DNA of 64,000 nucleotides from Cellulosimicrobium cellulans (GTDB taxonomy: Bacteria; Actinomycetota; Actinomycetes; Actinomycetales; Cellulomonadaceae). The notes under the pieces are model-generated. The model ran no database searches. It was not told the DNA's origin and saw only the letters and a program-made list of their open reading frames with translations. Made by a program: the position numbers and the translations under genes. Below, in pieces: positions 11,432-63,999 of this stretch. The stretch lies in NCBI RefSeq assembly GCF_016921195.1, contig NZ_JAFGYF010000002.1, positions 124,001-188,000 of the forward strand, in the 5' to 3' direction. Position 1 is the stretch's first letter. Every line of letters starts with the position of its first letter.

Positions 11432-12877
11432 ATGGATTTGTTCAGCGGAACGACGATCAGACGGGCGGTGGCGGCCGCGGTCGCGCTGCCGCTCGCGGGC
11501 GGGGCGACGCTCGTGGCCGCCGGCCCGGCCGCAGCCGACGAGGAGGGCTACAAGATCCTCGTGGTCGGCGAGACGCTCGGGTTCCGGCACTCGCACATCG
11601 ACGACACCACGCGCGCGCTCATCGCGCTCGGTGCCGACAACGGCTTCACGGTCGACGTGTGGGACCCGCCGAACGACTCCGCGGGCTGGTGGGGGGCCGG
11701 CTCGCCGGGCCAGCCCGACCTGAGCCTGGACTCGTCGCCGTTCACGAGCGCCGAGGACCTGGCCCAGTACGCGACCATCGTCTTCGCGTCGCCGGTCGAC
11801 AACACGAACTCCCTCAACCCCGCGACCCCGCGCCTGCTCGACGACGCCGAGCTCGCGGCGTTCCAGGGCTACATCCGCGGCGGCGGCGGGTTCGTCGGCC
11901 TGCACGCGGCGACGGACACGATGCACACCGTCCCCTGGTACAGCGAGCTCACCGGTGGTGGCGCGCGGTTCGTCAGCCACCCGCAGCAGCAGACGGCGAC
12001 GATGCGCGTCGAGAGCCCCGCCCACCCCTCGACCGCGCACCTGCCGGCCGTCTGGGAGCGGTTCGACGAGTGGTACAACTACACGACCAACCCGCGCGAG
12101 GACGTGCACGTCCTCATCACGCTCGACGAGTCGACGTACAACCCCGGCAACAACGCCATGGGCGAGGACCACCCGATCGCGTGGTGCCAGAACTTCGAGG
12201 GCGGCCGCTCGTGGTACGAGGGCGCCGGGCACACCGACGCCTCGTGGACCGACCCGCTCTTCCTCGAGCACGTGCTCAAGGGCGTCGAGTGGACGGCGGG
12301 CGTCGTCGAGGGCGGCGGCAACTGCGTCACCTTCGGCGAGGTCGACGAGGTCGTGGCGGGCCTGAACACCTCCGCGGTGGGCGACGGCGTCATCGCGGGC
12401 GCGATCTCGTCGCTGCTCGGCAGCGCGCGCAGCGCGGCCGACGCGGACGACCCGGCGACCGCGGTCCAGGTCCTGGGCGGCGCACGGTCGCTCGTCGACC
12501 ACCTGTCCGCGGCCGCGGGCGACCGTGAGCTGCTCGCGTCGAAGATCGACGACCTCGTCGTCTGGCAGAGCGCGCTCGTGGACGAGGGCCCCGCGATCGA
12601 CCTCGCCGCAGAGGCCGAGCTGCGGACGATGGGCGGCAAGCAGTACGTCGCGGTGCGCGTGCTCAACGAGGACGACACCCCCGTCGACATCACCCTGGCG
12701 ACTCCGTACGGCAGCAAGGAGTTCGCCGACGTGGCGCCCGGCAAGAACGCCTACCAGTCGTTCGCGACCCGGCTCGTCGAGGCTCCGTCCGGCGAGGTGA
12801 CCGTCACGGCCACGACCGAGCGCGACGGCGAGACGGTGACCGAGGAGCTCGTGCTCGCCTACGCGGGCACGGACTGA
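11432..12877 (+). CDS. Secreted ThuA-domain protein with C-terminal accessory domain
   Basis: A 481-residue exported protein. The signal peptide (RRAVAAAVALPLAGGATLVA) is probably cleaved after PAAA. Residues about 38-295 form a ThuA-like glutamine-amidotransferase fold (KILVVGETLGFRHSHID; GGGGFVGLHAATDT; GGGARFVSHPQ; WCQNFEGGRSWYEGAGH). About 85 helical residues resembling FIVAR spacers follow. The last 85 residues (QYVAVRVLNEDDTP ... TPYGSKEF ... NAYQSFATR) match the ends of the proteins at 36626-40411 and 63031-63999. ThuA proteins act in disaccharide and 3-keto-sugar use. Start ATG 11432 after AGGGAG. Confidence 0.88.
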   Translation: MDLFSGTTIRRAVAAAVALPLAGGATLVAAGPAAADEEGYKILVVGETLGFRHSHIDDTTRALIALGADNGFTVDVWDPPNDSAGWWGAGSPGQPDLSLDSSPFTSAEDLAQYATIVFASPVDNTNSLNPATPRLLDDAELAAFQGYIRGGGGFVGLHAATDTMHTVPWYSELTGGGARFVSHPQQQTATMRVESPAHPSTAHLPAVWERFDEWYNYTTNPREDVHVLITLDESTYNPGNNAMGEDHPIAWCQNFEGGRSWYEGAGHTDASWTDPLFLEHVLKGVEWTAGVVEGGGNCVTFGEVDEVVAGLNTSAVGDGVIAGAISSLLGSARSAADADDPATAVQVLGGARSLVDHLSAAAGDRELLASKIDDLVVWQSALVDEGPAIDLAAEAELRTMGGKQYVAVRVLNEDDTPVDITLATPYGSKEFADVAPGKNAYQSFATRLVEAPSGEVTVTATTERDGETVTEELVLAYAGTD

Positions 12878-12896
12878 CCCGTCGTCCGACACCCCC

Positions 12897-12935
12897 GACG
12901 GCGCCCGTCGCACCCCGCGTGCGGCGGGCGCCGTC
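12897..12935. terminator. Bidirectional terminator hairpin
   Basis: An outer 11-bp stem (GACGGCGCCCG / CGGGCGCCGTC) continues after one mismatch into CGCAC / GTGCG with a 5-base loop. It sits between the converging ThuA and PTE-like genes. There is no T-tract, as is common in high-GC actinobacteria. Confidence 0.7.
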
Positions 12936-12982
12936 GCGCACCCGTACGGTCGCGGTGCGGCGAGCAGGCGGCGCTGCCGCCG

Positions 12983-14032
12983 TCAGGCGGTGAGCATCGC
13001 CACCGGGTTGTCGTGCGTGAGGCGGGCGAGCACGTCGCGCGGCACGCCGCGGGCGGCGAGCATCTCCGTGAACACCGTCGGGACGTAGGCGAACCCGTTG
13101 CCCCCGTGCTGCACCCACATCTGCTTGAGGAACACGTCGTGGCTGAGCAGCACCTGGCCCGCGTGACCGCCCTCGACGAGGCGCTGCACCGCCGTGGCGG
13201 TCGTGTGCGGGTCGGGGGACACGCCCTCCTTCGGGAAGGTGATGTCCATGCCGACCATGTCGAACTCGAGCCAGACGCCGCGCTCGGCCACGGACCGCTG
13301 GTAGTCCGGGTCGTCCGCGGACGGGTCCATGTGGCACAGCACGACCTTCTCGGGCCGCACGCCCACCTCGTCGAGCACGAGGTCGAGCACCTCGTGCGCG
13401 CGCCGCTGCCACCCGGGCAGGTGCACCTGGAGCGCGACGTGCGGGTGCTCGCGCTGCGCGAGGGCCGCCGCGCGCAGCGATGCGGCCTCGCCGGCGGTGA
13501 ACGACGGCGAGACGCCGATCTCGCCGATGATGCCGGGGCGCACGCCGGTCCCGCCGATCCCGTCGGCGAGCTCCGCGACGATCGCGGACGCCTGGGCGTC
13601 CACGGCCGCGGCCGCGATGCGGTCGCCCTCGAACTTCTCCAGGTACGCGCCGCAGCCCGCGACCACGTGCAGCCCGGTGCGGCGCGCGACCTCCGCGAGG
13701 CGCTCGGGGTTGCGCCCGATCGCGGCGCTCGACGTCGCGTCGACGATCGTGCGGCCGCCCAGCGCGGCGAAGCTCTCGAGCTCCGCCGCGACCGCGGCGA
13801 CCGGCTTGTCGGCGATGTTGTCCGCGCAGCAGTACGGGTCCTGGCGCAGCGCCCACGCGAGCGACGCGGACACCGGGGCCTCGACGACCGCCTCGGAGAA
13901 GCGGTAGCTCGGCGGGTCGAGCACCCCGGACAAGTCGTTGAACAGGTGCTCGTGCGGGAGCGTGAGGCCGAGGTCCGCGGCCGCGGCGCGGCCGGTGACG
14001 GTCTGGACGTGGCCGGCGGGCGTGACGCTCAT
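12983..14032 (-). CDS. Phosphotriesterase-family metal hydrolase
   Basis: A 349-residue TIM-barrel amidohydrolase. Metal motifs are LTLPHEHLF (HxH, about residues 24-32), IIGEIGVS, VALQVHLPGW, VVLCHMDPS and VLLSHDVF with the final Asp. The bridging residue appears to be Glu (GEIG) rather than carboxylated Lys, as in the PTE-homology/lactonase branch. These enzymes hydrolyse lactones or sugar phosphates more often than organophosphates. It is last in the operon and overlaps the transporter by ATGA. A sugar-lactone or phosphate step in the same pathway as the kinase is plausible. Confidence 0.85.
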   Translation of the reverse strand: MSVTPAGHVQTVTGRAAAADLGLTLPHEHLFNDLSGVLDPPSYRFSEAVVEAPVSASLAWALRQDPYCCADNIADKPVAAVAAELESFAALGGRTIVDATSSAAIGRNPERLAEVARRTGLHVVAGCGAYLEKFEGDRIAAAAVDAQASAIVAELADGIGGTGVRPGIIGEIGVSPSFTAGEAASLRAAALAQREHPHVALQVHLPGWQRRAHEVLDLVLDEVGVRPEKVVLCHMDPSADDPDYQRSVAERGVWLEFDMVGMDITFPKEGVSPDPHTTATAVQRLVEGGHAGQVLLSHDVFLKQMWVQHGGNGFAYVPTVFTEMLAARGVPRDVLARLTHDNPVAMLTA

Positions 14033-15135
14033 CGCCGGCTCGCCTCGCCCGCCTCGCCGCCCGCGACCGCCGCGGCCACGGCGTCCTCGTGCGCGCCGTC
14101 GCCCGGCTCGTCGGGGTGGGCCGCCTTGCCCGACGGGATCATGCCGATCCCGGCGGCGACGAGCGCGATGACGGTACCGATCACGGTCGCGACGTGGACG
14201 GTGTGCCCGAGCGCCGGGATCGCGGCGTCCAGGACGAGCGAGCCGACGAGCTGGCCCGCGACGGACGCGAGGCCGAGCAGCAGCAGCCCGAGGCCGCGCA
14301 CGAGGAGCGCCATGAGCGCGATGGAGAGCAGGCCGAGCGGGCCGCCCAGGTACATCCACCACTCGCTCGGGAGCTGGAAGTCGACGCCGCCCGTCGCCGC
14401 GCGCACGAGGTAGGCGACCAGCAGCGCGGTGAAGCCCACGAGGAAGTTCCACCCGATCGAGACGAGCATCGAGCCGGTGACGTCGGCGACGGCCGCGTTC
14501 CCGGCGGGCTGCCAGCCCGCGAGCAGGCCGCCCACGAACGGCATGATCGCCAGGACGATCGTGTGCGGCACGGAGAAGCTCGGCGAGATGACCACGACGG
14601 TCGCCGCGATGGCGAGCGCGGCGCCCAGGAGCCGGGTCGCGGTGAGCGGCTGCTTGACCGACGCCGTGACGCCGAGGCGGTCGCAGACGACGCCCGAGAT
14701 GACGAGGCCGGAGATGAGCGAGATCTGGAACGTGGCGACGCCCAGGACGCCGACGGTGACGCCCTCGGAGAGGACGATGACGGCGCCGCACAGGCCCGCG
14801 AGGTAGTTCCACCACGGGATGGTGCGCGAGCGGATGAGGCCGGGGATCGCGAGCGCCTCGCGTCGGGTCGCGGGGCGCGCGAACACGACGACGAACATGA
14901 GGACCAGGCCGGTCCCGAACGAGATGAGCGCGGCGGCGTGGCCGTCGCCGATCGTCTTGCCGAGCTGGCCGTTGACGGCCGCCTGCATGGGGCCGAGGGC
15001 CCCCGCGAGGACGGTCGCGACGACGAGCAGGGCGGTCGCGGTGTCCTTGACCCTGCTGCGGCGGGCTGACGAGTTCAGAGCACCTCCCTGAGTGCCGGAC
15101 GGGGAACCGGTGGTCGCCGGCGTGGTGTGCTTCAT
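14029..15135 (-). CDS. DMT-superfamily (YdcZ-like) transporter
   Basis: A 368-residue integral membrane protein with about ten hydrophobic helices in two similar halves. The first half has ALGPMQAAVNGQLGKTIG and FQISLISGLVISGVVCDRLG; the second has GWQPAGNAAVADVTGSM and GQLVGSLVLDAAI. This matches the duplicated YdcZ/DUF606 type of the drug/metabolite transporter superfamily. It lies between the kinase and hydrolase genes of the LacI-linked operon and probably moves the pathway's sugar or nucleoside. Start ATG 15135 follows GGAGGAAGG. Confidence 0.85.
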   Translation of the reverse strand: MKHTTPATTGSPSGTQGGALNSSARRSRVKDTATALLVVATVLAGALGPMQAAVNGQLGKTIGDGHAAALISFGTGLVLMFVVVFARPATRREALAIPGLIRSRTIPWWNYLAGLCGAVIVLSEGVTVGVLGVATFQISLISGLVISGVVCDRLGVTASVKQPLTATRLLGAALAIAATVVVISPSFSVPHTIVLAIMPFVGGLLAGWQPAGNAAVADVTGSMLVSIGWNFLVGFTALLVAYLVRAATGGVDFQLPSEWWMYLGGPLGLLSIALMALLVRGLGLLLLGLASVAGQLVGSLVLDAAIPALGHTVHVATVIGTVIALVAAGIGMIPSGKAAHPDEPGDGAHEDAVAAAVAGGEAGEASRR

Positions 15136-15171
15136 TGCGTGACCGTGCCTTCCTCCGACGGTACGTCGGAC

Positions 15172-16092
15172 TTAGCTGTGGAGCGGAATCCTGGTGCCCT
15201 CGAGGGCCAGGTCGGTGGCGCGCGGCAGGGAGTCGACGGCGCCGTGGCGGGTGGTGGTGGAGGCGGCGACGCGCGCCGCCCAGCGGGCGGACTCGACGAG
15301 GTCGCCGCCGTGGAGGAGGCCGTCCGCGAGCGCCGCGCAGAACGAGTCGCCGGCGGCGGTCGTGTCGACGGCGTCGACGCGCACTGCCGGGACGGTGACC
15401 GGTGCGCGGCCCGCGGGGACGACGAGCGCGCCGTCGGCCCCGAGGGTGACGACGACGTCCCCGGGGTGGTCGAGCGCGCGCACCATGGCGAGCACGGCGT
15501 CGGTGCCGACGGGCTCGTCGTCCGCGCCGACGAGGGTCGCGAGCTCGAACCGGTTGGGCACGAGCACGCGGAACGCGGAGCGCACGTCGGCGGGCAGCGG
15601 GACGGCGGGCGCCGGGTTGAGCACGGTGGTGCCCGTCGCGGTGGCCGCGACGGCGCGCAGGGCACCGAGCGGCGTCTCGCACTGGCACAGCACGGCCGCG
15701 GCGTCGCGGACGAGGTCGGCGCGCTGGGTGACGAACGCCTCGTCCACGACGGCGTTCGCGCCGGGCTCGATGACGATGGTCGACTCGGGCTGCTCCCACA
15801 GCACGACGGCGACTCCCGTGGGGCGGTCCGCCGTCGCGAGGCCGTCGAGGACGAGGCCCTCGACGGCGAGGCGACGGCGGATCGCGCGGCCGTCGTCGTC
15901 GTCCCCGACGGCGCCGACCATGGCGACGCGCCGACCGAGCCGGGCGGCGGCGACGGCCTGGTTGGCGCCCTTGCCGCCGGGGGAGCGGACGAGGCCCGTC
16001 GCGGAGACGGTCTCGCCCGAGCGGGGCAGGCGGTCGACGGTCAGCCTGAGGTCCATGTTCAGGCTGCCGACGACCACCACCTCGGGCGTCAT
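15172..16092 (-). CDS. PfkB-family sugar kinase (ribokinase-like)
   Basis: A 306-residue cytoplasmic kinase. It has the N-terminal VVVVGSLNMDLRLTVDRLP and the substrate motif GGKGANQAVAAARLG (about residues 41-55). NPAP and PNRFELATLVG occur mid-protein, and the C-terminal anion hole is DTTAAGDSFCAALADGL with catalytic Asp. It is close to ribokinase/deoxyribokinase. It overlaps the upstream ThuA-like gene by one base (TGATG). With the transporter and the LacI regulator it suggests uptake and phosphorylation of a pentose or nucleoside-derived sugar. Confidence 0.88.
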   Translation of the reverse strand: MTPEVVVVGSLNMDLRLTVDRLPRSGETVSATGLVRSPGGKGANQAVAAARLGRRVAMVGAVGDDDDGRAIRRRLAVEGLVLDGLATADRPTGVAVVLWEQPESTIVIEPGANAVVDEAFVTQRADLVRDAAAVLCQCETPLGALRAVAATATGTTVLNPAPAVPLPADVRSAFRVLVPNRFELATLVGADDEPVGTDAVLAMVRALDHPGDVVVTLGADGALVVPAGRAPVTVPAVRVDAVDTTAAGDSFCAALADGLLHGGDLVESARWAARVAASTTTRHGAVDSLPRATDLALEGTRIPLHS

Positions 16093-16835
16093 CAGCCCGC
16101 GAGCCAGGTGACGGCCTGGCCGAACAGCGGGCCGTAGCCGGCCCAGTCCATGAACTCGCGCGGGGCCCAGTGGGGGGAGATGTCGGAGGCGAACGCGAGC
16201 GTGCGCCCCCGGCCCTCGGTGCGGACGGCGACGAGCGGGCGGCCCTCGATGGTGGCGAGGACGGTCGCGTCGGCCTTGGCGGTGAGGCGCTGGTAGCCGA
16301 GGAGGATCGGCCACTCGCGGTCGAGACCCGCGGTGACGGGGTGCTCGACGTCGGTCAGGGTGCCGCCGATGCCCTCGGGGGTCTCCTCGCGGTCGTCGTA
16401 CGGGAGGATGTCGACGGGCAGGACGGCCTCGACGGCGGTGCCGTGGTAGTTCGCCTTGGCCTGGAAGCCCTGGAAGCTGAGGTAGCCGCCGGCCATCATC
16501 AGGCCGCCGCCGCGGCGGACCCACTCGGCGAGGAGCTTGAGCCGGTTCGGGAACGGGCGCCCCTGGGAGAACACGACCGGCGGCAGCAGGAGCGAGTTGG
16601 CGCCGATGTCCGACAGGATCACGACGTCGTAGGCGTCGAGCTCGTCGAGCGTCGAGGGGAAGTCCTCGGCGACGAGGTGCGAGGGCAGGTGCGTGACCTC
16701 GTGGCCCTCGGCGGCCAGCGCCTCGAGCAGGCGCGCGCACCCGATCTCGAGCTGGGCGTGGGGGAACGCGTCGTACCCCTTGTAGTCGGTGGTCGCGTTG
16801 ATCCACGACTCCCCGGCGAGCAGAACCCGGCTCAT
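16092..16835 (-). CDS. Cytoplasmic glutamine-amidotransferase-like (ThuA-like) protein
   Basis: A 247-residue protein of the class I glutamine-amidotransferase-like fold, related to ThuA. It has MSRVLLAGESWIN at the start, YDVVILSDIGANSLLLP, WVRRGGGLMMAGGYLSFQG at the nucleophile-elbow position without Cys, and FASDISPHWAP near the end. Start ATG 16835 follows a perfect AAGGAGG; the frame is open further upstream but lacks such a site. It is first in the four-gene operon. Two TTGCGCAA operators lie 47-75 bases upstream. Function in the pathway is unknown. Confidence 0.85.
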   Translation of the reverse strand: MSRVLLAGESWINATTDYKGYDAFPHAQLEIGCARLLEALAAEGHEVTHLPSHLVAEDFPSTLDELDAYDVVILSDIGANSLLLPPVVFSQGRPFPNRLKLLAEWVRRGGGLMMAGGYLSFQGFQAKANYHGTAVEAVLPVDILPYDDREETPEGIGGTLTDVEHPVTAGLDREWPILLGYQRLTAKADATVLATIEGRPLVAVRTEGRGRTLAFASDISPHWAPREFMDWAGYGPLFGQAVTWLAG

Positions 16836-16881
16836 CCCGGCCTCCTTGCGATCAGGTCGCGCGGCGACGTCCTCGACGACG

Positions 16882-16909
16882 TTGCGCAACGTTGTGTAGC
16901 GTTGCGCAA
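16882..16909. promoter_or_regulatory. Paired TTGCGCAA operators between the operon and lacI-type gene
   Basis: Perfect 8-base palindromes TTGCGCAA occur at 16882-16889 and 16902-16909, centre to centre 20 bases, so both lie on about the same helix face. They sit between the divergent operon and regulator genes. The CG-centred palindrome is typical for LacI-family proteins. A third copy is inside the regulator gene (17037-17044). Confidence 0.75.
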
Positions 16910-17020
16910 GACCGTAGGGGGCGGGCGGCGCGGCTGTCAACACCGTGCACCTCCGCGCGCGGCCCGACGCTCCCGGTAGAGTGCAGGGGATCTGGGGGAC
17001 CGCCCCGAGGAAGGGGAGCC

Positions 17021-18043: not shown

Positions 18044-18074
18044 CCCCCGGGCCGGGCGCTGCGGCCGCCGGCGG

Positions 18075-19424: not shown

Positions 19425-19625
19425 CGGGTCACCGTGCCACGGCCGGGGTTTGCTCGCGGCCCGAGCGAGGCGCCTCTCGCGGCGGCGCCGGAGCACGTGC
19501 GAGCCGCGTGGGCCCGTGTGAGCGTGAAGGTCCCGGGTCCAGCAGCGAGCCCGTCCGCACGAGCGCGACCGGCCGGGACCAGGCGTCCCGAGCCACGGTC
19601 GCGCACCGTCGCGAGGAGACGAGCC

Positions 19626-22514: not shown

Positions 22515-22566
22515 GGTGCGGTCCTTCCGTCGGTCGGGTCGGTGGGGTCGGCGCGCCGGGCGCGTG

Positions 22567-36625: not shown

Positions 36626-39600
36626 GTGCACAGACCAACCACGGGCCGACGCAGGCTCGCCCGAGGTGCCGCGGCGGCGCTGTCCGCCGCGTTGCTCGTC
36701 CCGCTCGCGATGAGCGGAGCGAGCGCGCACCCCGGCCACGGCGAAGACGACGGCGGGACGGCCGCCGAAGCCGCGCAGGACGACGCGGCTCTCGACTGGA
36801 ACAACTACGAGAAGGTCCTGCTGAGCAAGGACACCGGCGAGCCGATCGACCTCGCCGTGCTGCCCGACTCGCGAGTCCTGCACACCGCGCGCGACGGCGT
36901 CGTCCGCCTCACGGACACCGCGACCGGCCGCACGACGCAGGTCGCGAAGCTGGACGTCTACGCGAACTCCGAGGACGGGCTGCAGGGCATCTCCCTGGAC
37001 CCGAACTTCGAGGAGAACGGGTACGTCTACCTCGTGTACGCGCCCCGCGTCATGGAGGGCACCTCGCCCACCGGGGTCGAGTACCCAGAGACGACGCCGC
37101 AGGGCAGCGCGCCGAACTCGCTCCCCGCGGGCGAGGACGAGAGCTACTGGGACCGCTGGCTGGGCTACAACCAGCTCTCCCGCTTCACGTGGGACGCGGA
37201 GAGCAGCACGCTCGACCTGGACAGCGAGCGCGTGATCCTCAAGGTCGACGCGCAGCGCGGCCAGTGCTGCCACGTCGGTGCCGACATCGCGTGGGACGCC
37301 GAGGGCAACCTCTTCCTGTCCACGGGTGACAACACCCCGGCCGGCACCCCCGGGGCCGACGGCTACGCGCCGAACAACAACGCGCCCGGCATGAACCCGG
37401 GGTTCGACGCCCGCCGGGGCGCCGGCAGCACGAACGACCTGCGCGGCGCGATCCTGCGGATCAACCCGATCGAGGACATCCCGGCCGGTACCGAGGTCGG
37501 CCCCGGCTCCACGTACACGATCCCCGAGGGCAACCTCTTCGACGACCCGCAGTACGAGGGGTCCGAGGACCTGGTGCGCGAGGAGATCTACGTGATGGGG
37601 GTGCGCAACCCGTTCCGGATCGACTACGACGTCGAGTCCGGCGCGCTCGTCTGGGGCGACTACGGCCCCGACGCGGCGAACGCCAACCCCGACCGCGGCC
37701 CCATGGGCTACGTCGAGTGGCAGCTGACGACCGAGCCGATGAACGGCGGCTGGCCCTACTGCCACGGCCCCAACGCGAACTACAACGAGTGGGACTTCGC
37801 GACCGCCACCCCGGGTGAGTGGTTCGACTGCGAGGCCGGGGCGACGAACAACTCCACGTGGAACACCGGCCTGGAGGTCCTGCCGCCGGCGACCGCGCCG
37901 CAGGTCTACTACGGCGACCGCCCCGGCGACCAGCCCGAGCTGCTCGACCCGCTGGTCGAGCTCGGCGGCACGGGACAGGCGCCCATGGGCGGCCCGATCT
38001 TCCGTTCCGCGGACTACCCGGACGCGCCGGGCAAGTTCCCTGCGTACTGGGACGGCAAGCCGTTCATGGCCGAGTTCTCCCAGGACTACGTCGTCGCGTT
38101 CACCCTGGACGAGCTCTCCTCCGCCGGTGAGGTCACCGCGGTCGAGGACTTCCTGCCGAACGCCCACCTGGAGACGGTGAACCAGCCGATCTGGGACAAC
38201 GTCATGGACATGGAGTTCGGGCCCGACGGGTCGATGTACGTCCTGGAGTACGGTGACGGCTTCTTCCGCCAGAACCCGGACGCCGGGCTGTACCGGATCA
38301 CCTACGGTTCGGAGAACAAGACGCCGCGCGCGGCGATCACCGCGTCCCCGATCTCGGGCAGCGACGCGCCGCTCGAGGTGACCTTCGACGCCTCGGCGAC
38401 CACGGACGCGGAGACCCCGAACGAGGGCCTGACCTTCGACTGGGACTTCGACGCCGACGGTGAGTACGACGCCCAGGGTGAGACGGTGACGCACACGTTC
38501 ACCGAGCGCGGCCGGTTCGCGGTGCAGCTGCGCGTGACGGACCCGGAGGGCAACTTCGGTCTCGCGATCCAGCAGATCACCGTCGGCAACACCGCCCCGG
38601 AGATCACGCTGAGCCAGCCCGACGGCGCCATCTTCGACTGGGGCGACGCCGTCCCGTACACCGTCTCGGTGCACGACGCCGAGGACGGCGACGACCCGGT
38701 GTGCCGCAACATCCAGTACACCTTCGGGCTCGGCCACAACGAGCACGCCCACCCCGAGGTGAGCGGGCGAGCGGCGGACACCGAGGCCGGCTGCGGCTTC
38801 ACGATCCAGACGAGCCCCGACGCCGTCGAGCACGGCGAGGGCGAGAAGATCTTCGGCACGCTCGTCGTGACCTACACGGACCAGGCCCAGGGCGACGTGC
38901 CCGCCATCACCGGCGAGGCCACGCACGTCCTCAAGCCCCAGGCGCAGCAGGCCGAGTGGTTCGACGCGGCCGAGGGCGTCGAGGTCGTCGAGGACGCGGC
39001 GGCGAGCGCCGGACGCTCCGTGACCTCGTTCGACGAGGGCGACTCGTTCACCTACCGGCCGCTCGCACTCGTCCATGCCCCGACGGGCGAGGCGGTCGAC
39101 GAGGTCACCGTCCGGGGCAGCGGCGAGGGCACCGTCACGCTGAGCTGGCAGGGCGCGGGGGCCGAGCCCACCGAGCCGCTGGCCGACTTCGCCTTCACGG
39201 GCGAGGGCTGGCAGGACGTCACGCAGACGCTGAGCAGCGTGCCCGAGGGCTCCGGCGCGGTCGTCGTGACGACCACCGGCGGCGTCGACGTCGACACGGT
39301 GACGTTCGCCGTGGGCGACGGCAGCACCGAGCCGGTCGTCGTGCCGGTCGAGCAGGTGTCCATCCAGATGTTCTCGCTCATCCCGTGGGTCAACGAGGCG
39401 GGCCTGCCGGCCGTGCTCGAGCGCCTGTCGGAGATCGGCTTCACGAACATCGAGCCCTTCGGCGGCAACTTCTCCGGCTACACCGCCGAGGAGTTCCGTG
39501 CGCTGGCCGACTCCTACGGCCTCAGCGTGAAGTCGTCGCACTACAACGTCGACGAGGCCACGTTCGACGCGACCCTGGACTACGTGGGGACGCTCGGCCA

Positions 39601-40411
39601 GGAGTACGTCGGCTCGGGCGGCTGGCCCGCACCGGGCATCGGCACCTACGAGAACACGCTCGCGACGGCCGAGGCCATGAACCGGCTCGGGGAGCGCGCG
39701 GTCGACGCCGGCTTCACGAAGTTCTTCGGCCACAACCACGACGGCGAGTTCCGCACGACGTACGAGCACGAGGGGGAGACGCTCTCGGCCTGGGAGATCC
39801 TGGTCCGCGAGACGAACCCCGAGTACGTGACGTTCCAGCTCGACGTCGCGTGGGCCGCCCACGCGGGCGTCGACGTCCCGGCGCTCATCGAGCAGTACGG
39901 CGACCGGATCGAGCTGCTCCACGTCAAGGACGCCACCGGCCTGAACGCGGGCGGCCGCCCGTCGTTCACCAACCTGGGCGAGGGCGAGGTGCCGCTGCAG
40001 GAGATCCTCACGGCGGCCCAGGAGGCCGGCGTCGCGTACTACGTCCTCGAGTGGGACCAGGCGCCCGACGGCGAGGACTTCGCGGCCCACGGCTTCGAGT
40101 ACCTCACCGGCGTCCCCGCCGGAGAGGCCGGGCCCGACGTCACGGCGACCGCGCAGGCGCGCTGCCTCGCGGGCAAGGCCTACGTCGCGGTCCGTGCCCT
40201 CAACGAGGACGACGTGCCGCTGACGGTGACGCTCGAGACGCCGTACGGCACGAAGACGGTCGAGAACGTCGCCCCGGGCGCGAACGCCTACCAGTCGTTC
40301 GCCGTCCGGTCCGGTGCGGTCGAGGCCGGCTCCGCCACGGTCACCGCCACCGACGCCGAGGGGAGGACGGCCACGGTCACGGCCGAGCACGACGCGCTGT
40401 CGTGCAGCTGA
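36626..40411 (+). CDS. Secreted multidomain protein: dehydrogenase-like propeller, PKD, sugar-binding-like module, TIM-barrel isomerase, shared C-terminal domain
   Basis: A 1261-residue exported protein; GTG 36626 follows AAGGAGG. The signal peptide ends near GASAHPG. Residues about 45-560 are a PQQ sugar/sorbosone-dehydrogenase-like propeller (DGLQGISLDPNFEENGYVYL; CCHVGADIAWDAEGNLFLST; VRNPFRIDYD). About 565-660 is PKD (FDASATTDAETP; FDWDFDADGEYD), then an Ig-like part. About 774-905 is a beta-rich carbohydrate-binding-like module. About 908-1165 is a xylose-isomerase-like barrel (YGLSVKSSHYNVDEATFD; FGHNHDGEF; FQLDVAWAA; LLHVKDATG). The final 84 residues (RCLAGKAYVAVRALNEDD ... SCS) are shared with two other secreted proteins here. 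Confidence 0.9.
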   Translation: MHRPTTGRRRLARGAAAALSAALLVPLAMSGASAHPGHGEDDGGTAAEAAQDDAALDWNNYEKVLLSKDTGEPIDLAVLPDSRVLHTARDGVVRLTDTATGRTTQVAKLDVYANSEDGLQGISLDPNFEENGYVYLVYAPRVMEGTSPTGVEYPETTPQGSAPNSLPAGEDESYWDRWLGYNQLSRFTWDAESSTLDLDSERVILKVDAQRGQCCHVGADIAWDAEGNLFLSTGDNTPAGTPGADGYAPNNNAPGMNPGFDARRGAGSTNDLRGAILRINPIEDIPAGTEVGPGSTYTIPEGNLFDDPQYEGSEDLVREEIYVMGVRNPFRIDYDVESGALVWGDYGPDAANANPDRGPMGYVEWQLTTEPMNGGWPYCHGPNANYNEWDFATATPGEWFDCEAGATNNSTWNTGLEVLPPATAPQVYYGDRPGDQPELLDPLVELGGTGQAPMGGPIFRSADYPDAPGKFPAYWDGKPFMAEFSQDYVVAFTLDELSSAGEVTAVEDFLPNAHLETVNQPIWDNVMDMEFGPDGSMYVLEYGDGFFRQNPDAGLYRITYGSENKTPRAAITASPISGSDAPLEVTFDASATTDAETPNEGLTFDWDFDADGEYDAQGETVTHTFTERGRFAVQLRVTDPEGNFGLAIQQITVGNTAPEITLSQPDGAIFDWGDAVPYTVSVHDAEDGDDPVCRNIQYTFGLGHNEHAHPEVSGRAADTEAGCGFTIQTSPDAVEHGEGEKIFGTLVVTYTDQAQGDVPAITGEATHVLKPQAQQAEWFDAAEGVEVVEDAAASAGRSVTSFDEGDSFTYRPLALVHAPTGEAVDEVTVRGSGEGTVTLSWQGAGAEPTEPLADFAFTGEGWQDVTQTLSSVPEGSGAVVVTTTGGVDVDTVTFAVGDGSTEPVVVPVEQVSIQMFSLIPWVNEAGLPAVLERLSEIGFTNIEPFGGNFSGYTAEEFRALADSYGLSVKSSHYNVDEATFDATLDYVGTLGQEYVGSGGWPAPGIGTYENTLATAEAMNRLGERAVDAGFTKFFGHNHDGEFRTTYEHEGETLSAWEILVRETNPEYVTFQLDVAWAAHAGVDVPALIEQYGDRIELLHVKDATGLNAGGRPSFTNLGEGEVPLQEILTAAQEAGVAYYVLEWDQAPDGEDFAAHGFEYLTGVPAGEAGPDVTATAQARCLAGKAYVAVRALNEDDVPLTVTLETPYGTKTVENVAPGANAYQSFAVRSGAVEAGSATVTATDAEGRTATVTAEHDALSCS

Positions 40412-50200: not shown

Positions 50201-50209
50201 CGGCGGCAC

Positions 50210-50246: not shown

Positions 50247-50256
50247 CTGCCGTGCG

Positions 50257-51092: not shown

Positions 51093-51110
51093 GCCGTCGC
51101 CCGCGCCGCG

Positions 51111-52717: not shown

Positions 52718-52768
52718 GGCGTCTCTCCCTCGGGCAAACCGGGACCCGCTCGTCTCGAGGCCTCCTCC

Positions 52769-54740: not shown

Positions 54741-54879
54741 GGCGCGGGCCCCTTCCTGAGTCGTCCCCCGCGTCGTCACGGGGACGTCCTCACGCTACGT
54801 CGGACGGCGTGAGCACGCGCGGACGGGCGTTCCGGCCGTGAGCGGTTGCCAGTGCCGCGCGCAGGACTAGCGTCGCCTC

Positions 54880-55317: not shown

Positions 55318-55337
55318 CGCGCGGCGCCCGCCTCCGG

Positions 55338-56926: not shown

Positions 56927-56936
<10 letters not shown>
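55338..56936 (-). CDS. FAD-dependent oxidoreductase, phytoene-desaturase (CrtI)-like
   Basis: A 532-residue flavoenzyme. The N-terminal dinucleotide motif is VDAVVVGAGPNGLVAANALA, followed by VLVLEAQETYGGAVRS and, near the C-terminus, LYLASASAHPGGGVHGACGW, which closes the FAD site. Family members act on carotenoids or other lipids, but many are uncharacterised. The start is GTG 56936, overlapping the upstream dehydrogenase by 10 bases. It pairs with the zinc alcohol dehydrogenase and the converging SRPBCC gene. Confidence 0.85.
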
Positions 56937-58120
<1,184 letters not shown>

Positions 58121-58169
58121 GGTGGTGCCGTCCTTCCGTGGGTGGTCGTGCGTGGTGCGTGCCTCGGGC

Positions 58170-59129
58170 TCAGCCCTTGCTCCCCGTCGTCGCCACCCCC
58201 TCGACGAAGTGCCGCTGGCCGAGGAAGAAGAGGAGGATCATCGGGAGCGTCGTGATGACGGAGGCCGTGACGACGACCTCCCACTGCGACTCGCCCCCGG
58301 GGCCGAACTGGTCGATGAGGGCCTTGAGCCCGCGCGGGATGGTGAACGTCGACGAGTCCTGCAGGTAGATGAGCGGGCGCATGAGGTCGGTCCACGCGGC
58401 CTGCGCCTCGAAGAGGAACGTGAGCACGAGGGCCGGCCGGCACAACGGCACGGCGATGCGCCAGAACATCTGCCAGTTGTTCGCCCCGTCGAGGCGAGCC
58501 GCCTCGAACGGCTCGCGCGGCAGCCCCAGGAAGAACTGCCGGAGCAGGAACACGTAGAACGCGCTCGCGAAGAGGTTGCCCGCCCACAGCGGCACGTTCG
58601 TGCCGACGAGGCCGAGCTGGTTCCAGATGAGGAACGTCGGGATCATCGTCACGGCGCCGGGCAGCATCATCGTCGCGAGGACGAGGCCGAACAGCGGGCC
58701 GCGACCGCGGAACCGGAAGAACGCGAAGCCCCACGCGACGAGCGCGCTCGAGACCGTGACGAGCCCCGCGGCCAGCACGGTGACGACGACGGTGTTGCCG
58801 AGCCACAGCGCGAGCGGCGCCTCCTGCCAGACGGTCACGTAGTTGTCGAGCGTGAACGTGCGCGGCACGAGCCGGTTGTCGAACACCTCGGCGCGCGGCT
58901 TGAACGACGCCGAGAGCAGCCACAGCAGCGGGTAGACGAACGCCACGGTGGCGAGCACGAGCGCGGCGACCACGACCGCACGGACCCACCGGCGGCGGGG
59001 GCCGCGGCCGCCCCGCGCCGCGCGCGACGGCGGGGGAGGGCCCTGCACCTCCGGGGTCCCGGCCGCAGGGTCGGTGGCGGCGCCCGGGCCGCTCACGGCG
59101 GGGCGCGGGAACGACGGCGCGGTGGTCAT
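58170..59129 (-). CDS. Sugar ABC transporter permease (MalG-like)
   Basis: A 319-residue inner-membrane permease with six helices after a Pro/Gly-rich cytoplasmic N-terminus. The EAA loop is EAARLDGANNWQMFWRIAVP, which docks to the ATPase. TMMLPGAVTMIPTFLI and TIPRGLKALIDQFGPGGESQ are typical of the CUT1 family. It overlaps the other permease by ATGA. No ATPase gene is present, so a shared MsiK-type ATPase elsewhere is likely. Confidence 0.92.
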   Translation of the reverse strand: MTTAPSFPRPAVSGPGAATDPAAGTPEVQGPPPPSRAARGGRGPRRRWVRAVVVAALVLATVAFVYPLLWLLSASFKPRAEVFDNRLVPRTFTLDNYVTVWQEAPLALWLGNTVVVTVLAAGLVTVSSALVAWGFAFFRFRGRGPLFGLVLATMMLPGAVTMIPTFLIWNQLGLVGTNVPLWAGNLFASAFYVFLLRQFFLGLPREPFEAARLDGANNWQMFWRIAVPLCRPALVLTFLFEAQAAWTDLMRPLIYLQDSSTFTIPRGLKALIDQFGPGGESQWEVVVTASVITTLPMILLFFLGQRHFVEGVATTGSKG

Positions 59130-60115
59130 CGCTGCTCCCCCTCGTAGTAGACGAGGCGCCGGGACACGAGGAGCTGGACGAGCGTCACGAGCATGATGAC
59201 GACGAACAGCAGCCACGCGAGCGCCGAGGCGTACCCCATGTGCAGCTCCTGGAACCCCTCCTGGAAGAGGTAGATGACGTAGAACAGCGCGGCGTCGTTG
59301 CGGTAGGTCGAGTTGCCCGCGCCGAAGTAGGCCGAGTACGCCTCCGTGAACATCTGGAAGCCCGCGATGGTGTTGACCACGACGACGAAGAAGAGCGCGC
59401 CGCTGATCATCGGGACGGTCACGGCGCGCGTGCGGCGCCAGAACCCGGCGCCGTCGACGCGCGCGGCGTCGTACAGGTCGTTCGGGACGTTGCGCAGCGC
59501 CGCGAGCAGGATGATGACGGCCGACCCGACGGTCCACAGGCTGATGAGCACGAGGCCGGGCTTGATCCAGCTCTGGTCCGTGGTCCACGACGGGCCCTGG
59601 ATGCCGAACCACGACAGGACCTCGTTGACGATCCCGTACTGGCCGTTGAACAGCAGCAGGAGGAGCACGCCCACGGCGACCGGCGGCGTCATCTTGGGGA
59701 TGAAGAACGCCGTCCGGAAGAACCCCGCGGACCGGCCCGCCTGGTTGAGCAGGAGGGCGAGCGCGAGCCCGACGACCGTGTACAGCGGCACCTGGACGAC
59801 CGTGTACACGAGCGTGTTCCACAGCGAGAGCGCGACCTTCGGGTCCTGCGCCATCTCGCGGTAGTTCTCCAGCCCGACGAACGTCGGGTCGTTGATGACG
59901 TCGTAGTCGGTGAACGACAGGTAGGCGCTGTACACGATGGGCCACGCCGTGAAGACGAGGAAACCGACGATCCACGGGCTGATGAAGCGCAGCGCCGCAT
60001 TGCGCTCGCGGCGCTCGGACGGGCTCGGCCGTCCCTTCCGTCGCCCGGTCGGCGTCGCGCGCGGTCCGCCCGCGGCCGGGGTGGGCAGGTTCGGCGCGAC
60101 GTCCGCTGCCGCCAC
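59126..60115 (-). CDS. Sugar ABC transporter permease (MalF-like)
   Basis: A 329-residue permease with six helices. ISPWIVGFLVFTAWPIVYSA opens the first helix. The EAA-type loop is LYDAARVDGAGFWRRTRAVT, and the region between helices 2 and 3 is LWNTLVYTVVQVPLYTVVG. CUT1 family, partner of the MalG-like gene. GTG 60115 is the start; it lies 2 bases after the binding-protein stop. Confidence 0.92.
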   Translation of the reverse strand: MAAADVAPNLPTPAAGGPRATPTGRRKGRPSPSERRERNAALRFISPWIVGFLVFTAWPIVYSAYLSFTDYDVINDPTFVGLENYREMAQDPKVALSLWNTLVYTVVQVPLYTVVGLALALLLNQAGRSAGFFRTAFFIPKMTPPVAVGVLLLLLFNGQYGIVNEVLSWFGIQGPSWTTDQSWIKPGLVLISLWTVGSAVIILLAALRNVPNDLYDAARVDGAGFWRRTRAVTVPMISGALFFVVVVNTIAGFQMFTEAYSAYFGAGNSTYRNDAALFYVIYLFQEGFQELHMGYASALAWLLFVVIMLVTLVQLLVSRRLVYYEGEQR

Positions 60116-60116
60116 C

Positions 60117-61505
60117 TCAGCCCTCCTCGTCCCACTGGGCCCAGGCGTCGTCGAGCGCCTTCTGGGCCTCGTCCTGAGCCTGCGCGAGGGCGTCGGCGGG
60201 CTCCTGCTGGCCGTTGAGCACGCGGTTGACGGCGTCCTGCCACGCGGTCTCGAACTCGTTGTCCGCGGGGTTGGCGGGCAGCGCGAACGTCGCGTCGTTC
60301 GCCTCGTACATGGCGTCGATCGCGTCCTTCCACGGCTGCGGCGCGTCGTCCGGCACGAGGTCCTCGCGGATCTGCTCGTCCGCGTCCTCGTTGCCGGTGA
60401 GGACACCCGTGAACACGAGACCGTCCTGGGCGCGCGCGTCGGCACGCGCCTGCGCCGCCTGCACCCACGCGTCCGTCTCCGTCATGAGGCGCGCGAAGCG
60501 GCACGCCGCGGCGGGGTTCGCGCTCCCGCGCGGCACGGCCCAGGCCGAGCCCGACGCGAAGGCGATCGCGTCGCCGTCGGGAGTGCGCACGGCGTCGAAC
60601 GCCATGGGCGCGTCGGGCGACGACTCGTTGAGCACGTTGATGTACCACTGCTCCATCGGCATCGCGCCGAGCACGCCCGTCGCGAACTGGTTGCCGGCGC
60701 CGAAGAAGTCCGCGGAGTCGCGGTACGTCTTGACCGCCGGGAACCCGCCCTGGGCGTCGTAGATGCCGACCGCCCACTCGAGCGACTCGACGACCTCGGG
60801 CGCGTCGAGCTGCGCCGTCCGGCCGTCCTCGGACAGCAGGTCCGCCCCGACCGACTTGGCCCACAGCGGCAGGAACTCCGGCAGCTTCGAGTCGAACCCG
60901 ATGACGTTGAGCGTCCCGCCGTCGCTGCGCATCAGCGCCTCGTTCGCGGCGGTGACCGCGTCGCGGTCCGAGCCGTTCACGTCCTCGATCGTGAGCCCGG
61001 CCGCCGACAGCAGGTCGGCGTTCGCCATCGTCACCTGGACCTGGTTGAACTCGGGGATGCCGTACACGCTGCCGTCGAAGGTCACCTGCTCGACCGCCGT
61101 GTCGACGAACGCGTCCATGTCGACGCTCTCGGCGTCGACGCACTCGTCGAGCGGGAGGATCGCGTCGCGCGACGCGAACGTCCCGATCTGGTCGCGGTTG
61201 GCGTAGACGAGGTCGGGCGGGTTGCCGGACGCCACGGCCGAGAGGAAGGCCTGGATGTCGAGCTCGCCCTCGGACAGCCGCACGTCGACGCCCTCGAGGT
61301 CCTGCACGGCGCGGTCGTACCGGACCTCGCCGATCTCGTCGCCGGTGCCGAACCCCATGACCGAGAGCTCGCCGGACGGCGCCTCGTCGGCCGAGAAGTC
61401 GACGTCCGAGCCGTCGTCGCCCGTGCCCTGGGCGCAGCCCGTCAGGGCCAGGGCGGCCACCACCATGCTCGTTCCTGCGGCTGCCGCGCCGCGTCGGCGG
61501 ACCAT
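60117..61505 (-). CDS. Sugar ABC transporter substrate-binding lipoprotein
   Basis: A 462-residue extracellular lipoprotein. The signal and lipobox are VVAALALTGC, with the Cys acylated. The body is a family 1 solute-binding protein (ELSVMGFGTGDEIGEVRYD; YGIPEFNQVQVTMANADLLS; NQFATGVLGAMPMEQWYINV; GSAWAVPRGSANPAAACRFA). The C-terminal helix is rich in Ala/Gln. Two ATGs are adjacent, and I prefer the second (61505), 6 bases after AGGAGG. The ligand is probably an oligosaccharide. First gene of the importer operon. Confidence 0.9.
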   Translation of the reverse strand: MVRRRGAAAAGTSMVVAALALTGCAQGTGDDGSDVDFSADEAPSGELSVMGFGTGDEIGEVRYDRAVQDLEGVDVRLSEGELDIQAFLSAVASGNPPDLVYANRDQIGTFASRDAILPLDECVDAESVDMDAFVDTAVEQVTFDGSVYGIPEFNQVQVTMANADLLSAAGLTIEDVNGSDRDAVTAANEALMRSDGGTLNVIGFDSKLPEFLPLWAKSVGADLLSEDGRTAQLDAPEVVESLEWAVGIYDAQGGFPAVKTYRDSADFFGAGNQFATGVLGAMPMEQWYINVLNESSPDAPMAFDAVRTPDGDAIAFASGSAWAVPRGSANPAAACRFARLMTETDAWVQAAQARADARAQDGLVFTGVLTGNEDADEQIREDLVPDDAPQPWKDAIDAMYEANDATFALPANPADNEFETAWQDAVNRVLNGQQEPADALAQAQDEAQKALDDAWAQWDEEG

Positions 61506-61567
61506 CATCTGCCTCCTCGTGGGAGCCACGGGGGACGGCAGGGGTGCGCGACGCCACCGTGGTGCTC

Positions 61568-61601
61568 GACGGCGTCGGCGGCTGGCTGCACCGACGCCGT
61601 C
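61568..61601. promoter_or_regulatory. Inverted repeat upstream of the binding-protein gene
   Basis: GACGGCGTCGG (61568-61578) and CCGACGCCGTC (61591-61601) are perfect inverted copies around 12 bases. It lies about 65-95 bases upstream of the importer operon start and could be an operator or a 5'-leader stem-loop. No factor is assigned. Confidence 0.45.
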
Positions 61602-61751
61602 AGTGAAGCACCGGCTCTGCCCGCTCACACGTCGAGCCGGTTCTCCGGCGCGCCCGGCGTACCCGGCGCACCCGGCGCGGATCCTGCGGGCGTCCTGGGC
61701 CTCGCACCCGTGGGCGTGCGGGCAGCCGGGGCGCGCGGCAGCCTCGTTCCC

Positions 61752-62879
61752 GTGGCTGGCGAGGACAGGACGGCGGACGGGAGCCGGCGCGGCGCGCGGG
61801 CGGGCGCGCTCGTGGCACGCGCGCGTCGCACCGTGGCGACGGCGCAGCGGCAGTGGGTGCGCCACCCGCGGTGGTCGCTCGCGGTCAAGGGCGCGGTCGC
61901 CGCGGCCGTCGCGTGGTTCGTCGGCGTGCTCGCGCCCGAGCCCTTCTCCGACTACCCCTACTACGCGCCGCTGGGCGCCGTCGTCGCGACGACGAGCACG
62001 CTCGCCCGGTCGGTCCGCGAGTCCACGCAGGCGATCCTCGCGATCCTCGTCGGCGCGGCCATCGCGCGCGGCGTCGACCTCGTCCTCTCGCCGAGCGCGC
62101 TGTCCGTCGCGCTGGTCGTCGGCCTCGCGCTCCTGTGCTCGGGCTGGCGCCGGTTCGGCGAGATGGGCACGTGGGCCGTGACGTCGGCCCTGTTCGTCCT
62201 CATCATCGGCAACGCGGCCAAGGTCGAGTTCGTCGGAGCATACGCGGGGCTCGTCGTCGTCGGCGCGGCCATCGGGGTGGTGATCAACCTCCTGGTCCCG
62301 CCGCTGCCGCTCACCCCGACCGAGGAGGCGCTCGACGGGCTGCGCGACACGCTCGTCGACCAGGTCGAGGCGCTCGCGGACGGGCTCGACGGGGAACGGC
62401 CGCCGTCCGCGGAGGAGTGGGAGGAGCGCCGCCGTGAGGTGGCGCCCACGCTCGCCCGTGCGCGCGACGCGGTCTCGCGCACGCGCGAGGCGGCACGCGC
62501 CAACATCCGCCTGCGCCGCCACCGGGAGTGGGCCGTCTCGCAGGTGCGGCGCGCGCAGGAGCTCGAGGGCTCCGCGGACGTCGTCGAGTCGCTCGTCCGG
62601 CTCCTCGTCGAGTGGGAGCGCGAGGGGCGCGACGATCTCGCCCTCGGCGCCCGCCTGCGCCCGCTCGCGGCGCGCGCGCTCGACGCCTACACGGCCGCTC
62701 TGCGCTCGGTCGGCACCGAGCCCGCGGGCGAGGAGGAGCTGCGCACGCTCGCCGCCCGCGCGGAGGACCTGCGCAGGGCGGTCCGCGAGGCGCGGCGGGA
62801 GGTCGACGAGGACTACTTCGTCGCCGGCGCCGTGGTGCTCTCCCTCCGACGGGGTGCGGCGGTCCTCGCCACGACCTGA
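61752..62879 (+). CDS. FUSC-family (aromatic acid exporter-like) membrane protein
   Basis: About 375 residues. Hydrophobic helices begin at WSLAVKGAVAAAVAWFVGVL. The FUSC signature YYAPLGAVVATTSTLARSVR, GWRRFGEMGTWAVTSALFVL and GVVINLLVPPLPLTP follow. The C-terminal half is a long charged helical cytoplasmic domain. The start is uncertain: in-frame GTGs at 61710, 61716, 61752 and 61812 all lack a good ribosome site, and I use 61752. Substrate unknown. Confidence 0.75.
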   Translation: MAGEDRTADGSRRGARAGALVARARRTVATAQRQWVRHPRWSLAVKGAVAAAVAWFVGVLAPEPFSDYPYYAPLGAVVATTSTLARSVRESTQAILAILVGAAIARGVDLVLSPSALSVALVVGLALLCSGWRRFGEMGTWAVTSALFVLIIGNAAKVEFVGAYAGLVVVGAAIGVVINLLVPPLPLTPTEEALDGLRDTLVDQVEALADGLDGERPPSAEEWEERRREVAPTLARARDAVSRTREAARANIRLRRHREWAVSQVRRAQELEGSADVVESLVRLLVEWEREGRDDLALGARLRPLAARALDAYTAALRSVGTEPAGEEELRTLAARAEDLRRAVREARREVDEDYFVAGAVVLSLRRGAAVLATT

Positions 62880-62938
62880 TCGCGGTGCCGCGCCGGTGCG
62901 TCCGGGGCAGCTCCCGTGCCGCGGCCCAGCGCGCGCAC

Positions 62939-62996
62939 GAGCCGCCCCGGTCCCGCCGGCTGGTCGGACGCAGCCGTCACGGGGCCGGGGCGGCTC
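62939..62996. terminator. Bidirectional terminator stem
   Basis: GAGCCGCCCCGG (62939-62950) and CCGGGGCGGCTC (62985-62996) pair perfectly over 12 bp around a 34-base loop, between the converging FUSC and DUF1080-like genes. Confidence 0.55.
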
Positions 62997-63030
62997 ACGC
63001 GGTCAGGAGGTGGCGCTCACGCGCAGGGGG

Positions 63031-63999
63031 TCACCCGCACGTGTGCGCGTCGTGCTCGACGACGACCTCGCTCGTCACCTCCTCGCCGTCGACCGACGCG
63101 GTCGCGGAGACCGTGACCTCGCCGGCGTCGACCGTCGTGGCACGCGTCGCGAACGACTGGTAGGCGGCCTTGCCGGGCTGGACGTCCGCGACCGTCCGTG
63201 ACCCGAACGCGGTCGTGAGGGTGACGTCGGCGGGTACGTCGGACGCGTTCGTCGCCGCGACGGCGAGGTACGCCTTGCCGGCGAGGCACCGCGGCGAGAC
63301 GGCGACGTCGAGCTCGACCCCGGCGGGTTCCGCGGCCGGCGTGACCACGAGGTCGCGCAGGCTGCCGGTGTTGTCGAACGAGCCGAAACCGACGCGGCCC
63401 TCGGCGAACGTCGTGTCGTTCGCCGTGAGGAGCGGGGTGTCGAGGCCGTCGAGGTACACGGCGATGTCGCCGCTGTCCGCGCAGCGCACGACGCGCACGT
63501 CGTGCCACTCCTCGTCGGTGACCGCCGGGGGAGCCCCGACCGCGCCGTCCCACTGGTCGTCGATCCGCTCCCGGTCCTTGCCGTCGACCTTGAAGATGCC
63601 GTTGTGGGCGTAGATCGTGTTGTCCTGCGAGAGGTGGGCGTAGTAGTACTGCGTGTCCGACTGCCAGCCGAACACCACGATCACGTCCCGGTTGTTCACC
63701 GACGCCGGGGCGTCGAGCCTGACCTCGGCGTCGAGCGCGAACGAGCCGAGCTCGGGACCCTCGGTGAGGACGGCGTACTCGAACGGGCGGCGGATGCCGT
63801 CGTTCGGGTTGTCGCCCGCCTGGGCGAGGACGACCGCGTCGCCGGGGAACTGCCACTTGGCCGGCGTCCGCGGCGCCCAGTGCTCGGCCGCCATGACGTC
63901 CGTGATCGGCTCGCCCGCCGGTGCGCACGACGGTGGTGCGGGAGGCTCGACCGGCTGCGCGCCGAAGAGCGCGTACTGCGCCGCGACCTGCTCGGGCGT
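63031..63999 (-). CDS. Secreted DUF1080/LamG-like protein with shared C-terminal domain (5' end outside window)
   Basis: The C-terminal 322 residues of a larger protein; the frame stays open to the window edge (TPEQVAAQYALFGAQP). Residues after CAPAGEPITDVMAAEHW form a jelly-roll domain of the DUF1080/LamG kind (FEYAVLTEGPELGSFALDAE; YYYAHLSQDNTIYAHNGIFK; EWHDVRVVRCADSGDIAVYL; RVGFGSFDNTGSLRDLVV). The final 85 residues (RCLAGKAYLAVAATNASDVP ... HTCG) match the ends of the ThuA and propeller-fusion proteins. DUF1080 domains include 3-keto-disaccharide hydrolases/lyases. Export is inferred from its relatives, since the N-terminus is not visible. Confidence 0.82.
   Translation of the reverse strand, partial: TPEQVAAQYALFGAQPVEPPAPPSCAPAGEPITDVMAAEHWAPRTPAKWQFPGDAVVLAQAGDNPNDGIRRPFEYAVLTEGPELGSFALDAEVRLDAPASVNNRDVIVVFGWQSDTQYYYAHLSQDNTIYAHNGIFKVDGKDRERIDDQWDGAVGAPPAVTDEEWHDVRVVRCADSGDIAVYLDGLDTPLLTANDTTFAEGRVGFGSFDNTGSLRDLVVTPAAEPAGVELDVAVSPRCLAGKAYLAVAATNASDVPADVTLTTAFGSRTVADVQPGKAAYQSFATRATTVDAGEVTVSATASVDGEEVTSEVVVEHDAHTCG

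Follow-up and report, generated by a model that had tools for sequence, protein, structure and literature searches.

An immunoglobulin-like C-terminal module that may hold many exported enzymes at or near the cell surface of Cellulosimicrobium

A stretch of 64,000 nucleotides from Cellulosimicrobium cellulans (the window; G000:C12:124001-188000 of the 4.58-Mb genome) encodes three probably secreted enzymes that end in one and the same domain of ~90 residues, hereafter the module, which raises the question of what a shared end does for enzymes of different kinds. We propose that it is an immunoglobulin (Ig)-like C-terminal domain by which enzymes exported through the Sec pathway may be retained, independently of sortase, at or near the surface of the producing cell; both its ligand and its location are those that we infer, and a probability of roughly 45% is given to this reading. 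Surface retention is ranked ahead of a carbohydrate-binding module (CBM), followed by a ligand-free stabilizing cap and then by a sorting signal read by a dedicated machine.

The three protein ends are homologous, as an earlier note on this DNA had claimed: aligned over their last 90-93 residues, 31 of 93 columns are invariant and the other two copies are 50% and 48% identical to copy 1. The translated proteins share the pattern described there, namely (R)CLAGKxYxAV, N, T(P/A)(Y/F)G, V-x-PG and AYQSFA-x-R, with a pair of cysteines in copies 2 and 3 and neither of them in the ThuA copy. Their catalytic domains had been called unrelated, which is true of copy 1 (Pfam ThuA, E=1.6e-62, residues 97-344 of protein P0001, whose hydrophobic N-terminal segment ends in ATLVAAGPAAADEE) but not of copies 2 and 3, both of which are glucose/sorbosone dehydrogenase (GSDH) proteins; moreover, paralogues exist with ThuA and GSDH in one chain. 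The acidic end noted there does not characterize the family; most copies in this genome close with C-G, C-S or C-A. For the carrier of copy 3 (locus L142), the N-terminus lies beyond the window edge, at about 66927 in continued numbering.

Table 1. The three carrier proteins and their module copies in the window (E-values are for the search of the own genome; AF2, AlphaFold2).
Feature	Position	Strand	Basis and remarks
ThuA-family protein, probably secreted, carrier of module copy 1	11432..12877	+	Start 11432 is a chosen start
Module copy 1, no cysteines	12602..12874	+	E=3.4e-47; AF2 model mb4351c5cb038, predicted seven strands
GSDH - PKD - (CBM6, below cut-off) - AP_endonuc_2 protein, probably secreted, carrier of module copy 2	36626..40411	+	Pfam; hydrophobic N-terminus
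Module copy 2, with cysteines at its positions 9 and 89	40139..40408	+	E=2.2e-44; AF2 model m906b3cc36336, predicted seven strands
GSDH - LamG protein, C-terminal part, probably secreted, carrier of module copy 3	63031..64000	-	Pfam GSDH and Laminin_G_3; hydrophobic N-terminus
Module copy 3, both cysteines	63034..63312	-	E=1.4e-47

The three copies are real, but far more were found when a profile built from the three window ends was searched against the whole genome (threshold E≤0.001). Scores of the seed copies ranged between E=2e-44 and 1e-47, with the best unseen copies at 1.5e-40, and a total of 46 places were recovered, of which 45 are retained as module copies. The remaining place is an Ig repeat of L141, and the repeats of this protein (best E=3.7e-5) were rejected as module copies, being internal and low-scoring. 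C-terminal placement is a strong rule: the module is the last domain of the open frame in all 45 carriers, and every one of 113 distinct copies from 78 named loci ends no more than 15 residues before the stop. Among 42 rows from further fetched loci (a partly redundant set that includes own-genome repeats), 39 are terminal, two are cut at the locus edge and one, L211, is internal. A Sec-type hydrophobic N-terminus was called in 43 of the 45 carriers (lenient hydropathy criteria, no background rate), which suggests export via Sec; of the other two, L145 (GH51) was not flagged, and the flag of L138 was discounted by eye.

AlphaFold2 models of copies 1 and 2 (predicted local distance difference test scores of 97.2 and 98.1, respectively; predicted template modelling score of 0.88 for copy 2) are compact seven-strand sandwiches, which would place the module in the Ig-like beta-sandwich fold, and the two modelled ends agree in this predicted fold. 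Of 158 copies, 141 have both cysteines and 17 have neither, so that the pair is never split; because of this co-occurrence, a disulfide probably links the first strand to the last residues. The earlier suggestion of a non-catalytic, disulfide-closed beta-sandwich is thus well supported, by the models for two ends and by the cysteine pattern for the family. The closest known folds include Ig-, FnIII- and PKD-like sandwiches, among them residues 940-1043 of the lacto-N-biosidase of Trueperella pyogenes (9fyn); structural alignment, by VIA-align 2 on the top chains from Foldseek, covered copy 2. A covalent isopeptide bond (Lys with Asn or Asp) was considered and is thought unlikely, as position 13 is Lys in just 122 of the 158 copies.

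Residue conservation is concentrated around a few positions. The 45 own-genome copies, all recovered by the profile, do not vary at G37 and F54; A17, Y51, Q52, R57 and T34 are each kept in 44 of them and S53 in 41. Across all 158 copies, 113 of which stem from loci that were detected by patterns based on segments of the module, G37 and F54 are kept in 158, T34 and R57 in 157, Y51 and V44 in 156, A17 and Q52 in 153 and S53 in 133. A weak alignment to designed Ig proteins, as we read it, places V18, A20, A50, Q52 and F54 inward and A17, R19, T21, Y51 and S53 outward. At predicted outward positions, assigned by strand parity on 157 distinct rows, the mean entropy of strands B and E is 1.26 (n=9), as compared with 1.94 for the other strands (n=20; P value=0.009), in a test that is exploratory since B and E were picked after the columns had been seen; of the 21 strand pairs, DE, BE and BD have the three lowest entropies. 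These values suggest a single face that is probably conserved and would be exposed. In low-copy distant relatives (L206, L211, L225 and L281), YQSF is absent, with the F and the scaffold still in place. Between close orthologues, conservation of the module is similar to that of the enzyme; between distant ones it is lower.

The enzymes that carry the module are diverse. In a Pfam scan of all 45 carriers, most of those with a recognized catalytic domain are glycan enzymes: GH43 (8) and GH92 (3), single cases of GH13 pullulanase, GH10 plus deacetylase, GH2, GH30, GH51 and GH127, and a BNR sialidase-like and a glucoamylase-like protein. Eight carriers have ThuA, GSDH or AP_endonuc_2 domains, alone or combined, and three are of the 3-keto-disaccharide hydrolase type. 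Five are clearly non-glycan (a subtilase, an M28 peptidase, an endonuclease/5'-nucleotidase, a purple acid phosphatase and an asparaginase), while a putative esterase and a GDSL hydrolase could go either way, action on glycans being possible. The eight carriers without a recognized catalytic domain consist of six with accessory domains alone (L152, L134, L131, L135, L130 and L146, the last at 7771-9477) and two without any match (L161 and L139). With proteases, a nuclease, a phosphatase and an asparaginase among the carriers, one shared substrate is unlikely. One carrier (L133, in G000:C18) is a close homologue of the crystallized GH92 mannosidase CcMan5 of C. cellulans; the solved constructs (2xsg and 4aq0) match the 1619-residue L133 query up to residue 834 and so end well before the module. 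As to the layout of carrier genes, eight lie inside 40 kb at G000:C9:8390-47744, seven of them being GH43, GH51 or GH127. On the contig G000:C9, the GH51 carrier L145 (3647-6742) has an N-terminal part out of frame with the rest, from either a sequencing error or a broken gene.

To see what relatives of the carriers bear in the same slot, 80 distinct C-terminal tails, mostly from other genera, were compared in four families: GSDH/AP (15 distinct closed tails from chosen loci, including one homologue from the own genome), nuclease (32), pullulanase (22) and subtilase (11). Some of these relatives match one half of the query alone. An LPXTG-like motif followed by a hydrophobic segment and a basic end, that is, a sortase-type signal, was found in eight of the 80, at least one per family (L198, L207, L219, L222, L228, L248, L253 and L271; a count without a background rate); the motifs are LAKTG (three tails), LASTG, LPQTG, LSQTG, LSLTG and LGLTG. 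One tail (L232) has repeats like those of surface-layer homology (SLH) domains. CBM5/12-like ends were flagged by a simple pattern in six tails and the module in six proteins, L211 having both. The remaining tails end in Ig-like repeats, in Trp-rich ends or in nothing recognizable. Short, amphipathic-looking Trp-rich tails (for example, ...WWPW and DLITGWF) were seen in six module-less relatives (L223, L226, L243, L245, L247 and L249) and are possibly another surface-association device. Four GSDH-family proteins of other genera (L197, L199, L200 and L201) carry a tandem repeat of ~75 residues with CG or CD at the stop, perhaps the C-terminal module of another lineage.

The module is read as a shared address, and not as a binder specific to one substrate, because many chemistries, one position and one probably conserved face come together with covalent anchors, SLH or polymer-binding repeats in the same place of some relatives. 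Under this proposal, the enzyme would leave the cell via Sec by its N-terminal signal peptide, as judged from sequence. Outside, the module would fold into the predicted seven-strand sandwich, with the putative disulfide tying its first strand to its last residues. The face around Y15, A17, R19, Y51 and S53, plus Q52 and R57, would then bind a ligand common to the envelope, which may be a wall polymer or a surface protein, so that many enzymes would share one address, an arrangement comparable to that of the WxL or SLH domains of Firmicutes and, in function, to that of the C-terminal domains (CTDs) on substrates of the type IX secretion system (T9SS). Association with the wall is plausible, given the diversity of the carriers and the sortase signals, SLH or CBM5/12-like repeats of relatives. 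A bolder form of the surface-retention proposal, which we regard as doubtful, is a genus-wide, sortase-independent display system, perhaps extending to a neighbouring genus, in which one Ig-like tag on ~45 mostly unrelated exported enzymes would be recognized, at one conserved face, by a single wall polymer or receptor dedicated to it; such a system would largely replace LPXTG anchoring and act as a functional monoderm counterpart of the type IX CTDs.

Several observations weigh against surface retention through a dedicated face. The face derives from strand parity and not from coordinates, and parity is ambiguous for strands A and D. In a distant ThuA orthologue (L053), the enzyme part is 77% conserved and the module 59%. 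A second likely binding domain (CBM, CBM6, F5/8, LamG, PA14 or ricin-type) was read in 29 of the 45 carriers. As for the tails, 72 of the 80 have no LPXTG-like signal, many of them no recognizable device at all, and the motifs of the pullulanase family, solely LSLTG and LGLTG, are far from canonical. L211 bears ~106 residues with CBM5/12-like repeats after its module and some Micromonospora copies run eight residues beyond the last Cys; a free C-terminus is therefore not needed, and the idea that sorting depends on one is weakened. Finally, the low number of matches to PF00746 (LPXTG), zero or one per genome in all 17 genomes of the genus, would favour the proposal, yet several module-less genera also lack them, so a low LPXTG count is not special to module-rich genomes, and the PF00746 model missed the LAKTG tails of genome G030. 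A simple inverse relation between module count and LPXTG count was considered and is not clean.

The foremost alternative, and in our view an unlikely one, is a CBM that holds each enzyme to its polysaccharide substrate (such as arabinoxylan or a fungal-wall glycan), with the non-glycan enzymes sitting on the same plant or fungal debris. Glycans are indeed the target of most recognized carriers, the module occupies the place that CBM2 or CBM5/12-like repeats take in other enzymes, and its conserved tyrosines, predicted to be exposed on the sheet face, would suit a glycan. However, the polymers implied by the Pfam names of the carriers are very different (pullulan or starch, mannan, arabinoxylan, sialosides, proteins and nucleic acid), and CBM2, which is at or near the C-terminus in all seven CBM2 open reading frames read to the stop, shares an open reading frame with the module in none of its nine own-genome places. 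The matches to CBM_35 and CBM_6 are weak and are found in 2 and 1 of 58 copies, respectively (best E 0.017-0.03).

Less probable again is a stabilizing cap, that is, a protease-resistant, disulfide-closed end that guards long exported proteins and has no specific ligand. Such a cap would agree with a compact, probably disulfide-closed module on carriers that are mostly long and multi-domain, would need no partner gene, and would fit the faster drift of the module than of the enzyme in distant orthologues; yet it leaves unexplained the near-invariance of Y51, A17 and R57 (44 of 45 own copies each) and S53 (41), all predicted to be exposed, and why the low-copy distant relatives L206, L211, L225 and L281 keep the fold signature without YQSF. 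A true sorting signal for one dedicated machine (a receptor, protease or ligase), in the manner of T9SS CTDs or PEP-CTERM and perhaps modified or removed afterwards, appears improbable. In its favour are the large number of copies per genome, their position at the C-terminus and their patchy occurrence, and a seven-strand sandwich is also the form of T9SS CTDs (PMC10994853, in part). Against it, some copies tolerate C-terminal extensions and no T9SS family is among the Pfam or NCBIfam matches. The host is also monoderm, and monoderm cells need no outer-membrane step.

Of the known C-terminal systems, the WxL domain is similar in deployment: it is C-terminal, occurs on extracellular proteins and attaches them non-covalently to the surface. 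Two Trp-x-Leu motifs within the final 120-190 residues define it, and its hosts are mainly Lactobacillales and Bacillales (PMC5817068, in part). The module likewise ends proteins that are probably extracellular; it differs in being actinobacterial and in lacking a conserved Trp column in the 158 copies, and hence is not a WxL domain. In Bacteroidota, exported proteins of the T9SS end in a CTD that forms a 7-stranded beta-sandwich (PMC10994853, in part). The module as modelled has this form and differs in its monoderm host and in its lack of a family match. The Pfam and NCBIfam libraries include a T9SS CTD family, and none was among the matches at E≤0.1. Sortase substrates come into the comparison through the LPXTG-like signals that end some relatives in the four module-carrying families, whereas the module is a folded domain without LPXTG, membrane helix or basic tail; with 45 of 45 proteins ending in it, the carriers are not LPXTG sortase substrates. 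PEP-CTERM/EpsH and GlyGly-CTERM/rhombosortase are sporadic C-terminal homology regions of exported proteins, PEP-CTERM being a short C-terminal domain (PMC1569441 and PMC3237569, both in part), while the module is a globular domain of ~90 residues without a known partner (no partner-gene search was made).

The distribution of the module is uneven. Among 59 genomes (the own genome and relatives) searched at E≤0.001, 25 match, comprising all 17 of the genus (27-65 matches each), five of the 20 family members outside the genus (36, 4, 4, 2 and 1 matches) and three of the 22 drawn from elsewhere in the order (2, 1 and 1). In a phylum sample, at least six of 396 genomes match at E≤1e-6, the own genome included (up to 13 candidates were scored per genome, which makes this a lower bound). 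At least 579 stretches of the named collection matched and 214 encode a relative; the best 80 of these 214, representing the 78 named loci, come from Cellulosimicrobium, Oerskovia flava, Micromonospora and Paractinoplanes, in addition to a record labelled Sphaerisporangium cinnabarinum, a name taken as wrong. The module was also found in Nonomuraea and Clavibacter. Hence 'lineage-specific', as the earlier note had it, is too strong: given its occurrence in Oerskovia, Micromonospora, Paractinoplanes, Nonomuraea and Clavibacter, the module is lineage-expanded, and the family is hugely expanded in Cellulosimicrobium and in one genome of another genus. No match was found in 50,697 phage records, and four of 72,556 plasmid records match, one being an 11.85-Mb record that is taken as a chromosome. 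Concerted evolution of the copies is unsupported: 52 of the 113 named copies have a best own-genome match of ≥80%, and the median for the best paralogue within a genome is 67%.

No convincing match of the module to a named family was found in Pfam and NCBIfam with the three proteins or with 58 copies, or in Pfam alone with the three ends, so that the module has not turned out to be an already named family. The best Pfam match of the 58 copies is DUF7489 (E=0.0033, one member) and the most frequent is DUF4232 (12 of 58, best E=0.0061), while the best in NCBIfam is the VCBS repeat (E=1.7e-4, two members); none of the curated family cut-offs was reached by member 1. By sequence, the 3-row profile has no PDB match at E≤1, and the 58-row profile has four weak ones at E≤10 (best E=0.0069), two of which are designed Ig proteins. 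In the open-access literature (5.39 million papers), the titles and abstract starts among the matches listed contain no description of the module, and a full-text search for AYQSF returned three papers, all unrelated as judged from title and abstract start. The genome paper on Cellulosimicrobium cellulans (PMC8325422) has no mention of 'C-terminal', 'domain of unknown', 'cell surface' or 'sortase', the available part of PMC10167667 does not mention the module, and a literature search combining Trueperella and lacto-N-biosidase gave no match. C-terminal surface-association domains are already known, and it is in sequence, lineage and scale that this module is new.

If surface retention is true, the module would serve to target exported enzymes in a group whose yeast-lytic and hemicellulolytic enzymes are in use, and Actinobacteria would gain a folded tag for display at the surface. 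Dozens of proteins in each genome bear this mark, among them the close homologue of CcMan5, and a domain that is so frequent and unnamed deserves a place in family databases even if it is only a generic cap.

A separate observation concerns L141 (G000:C23, 844-6234), the protein with the rejected Ig repeats. It is one frame of 1796 residues in which, reading by eye, a region like an extracytoplasmic function (ECF) sigma factor is followed by sequence rich in Ala and Gly, a hydrophobic segment and a linker of Thr and Pro. Several Ig-like repeats, of which some weakly resemble the module, and an aromatic, CBM5/12-like end complete the protein, which is possibly a membrane-spanning, polymer-sensing sigma factor.

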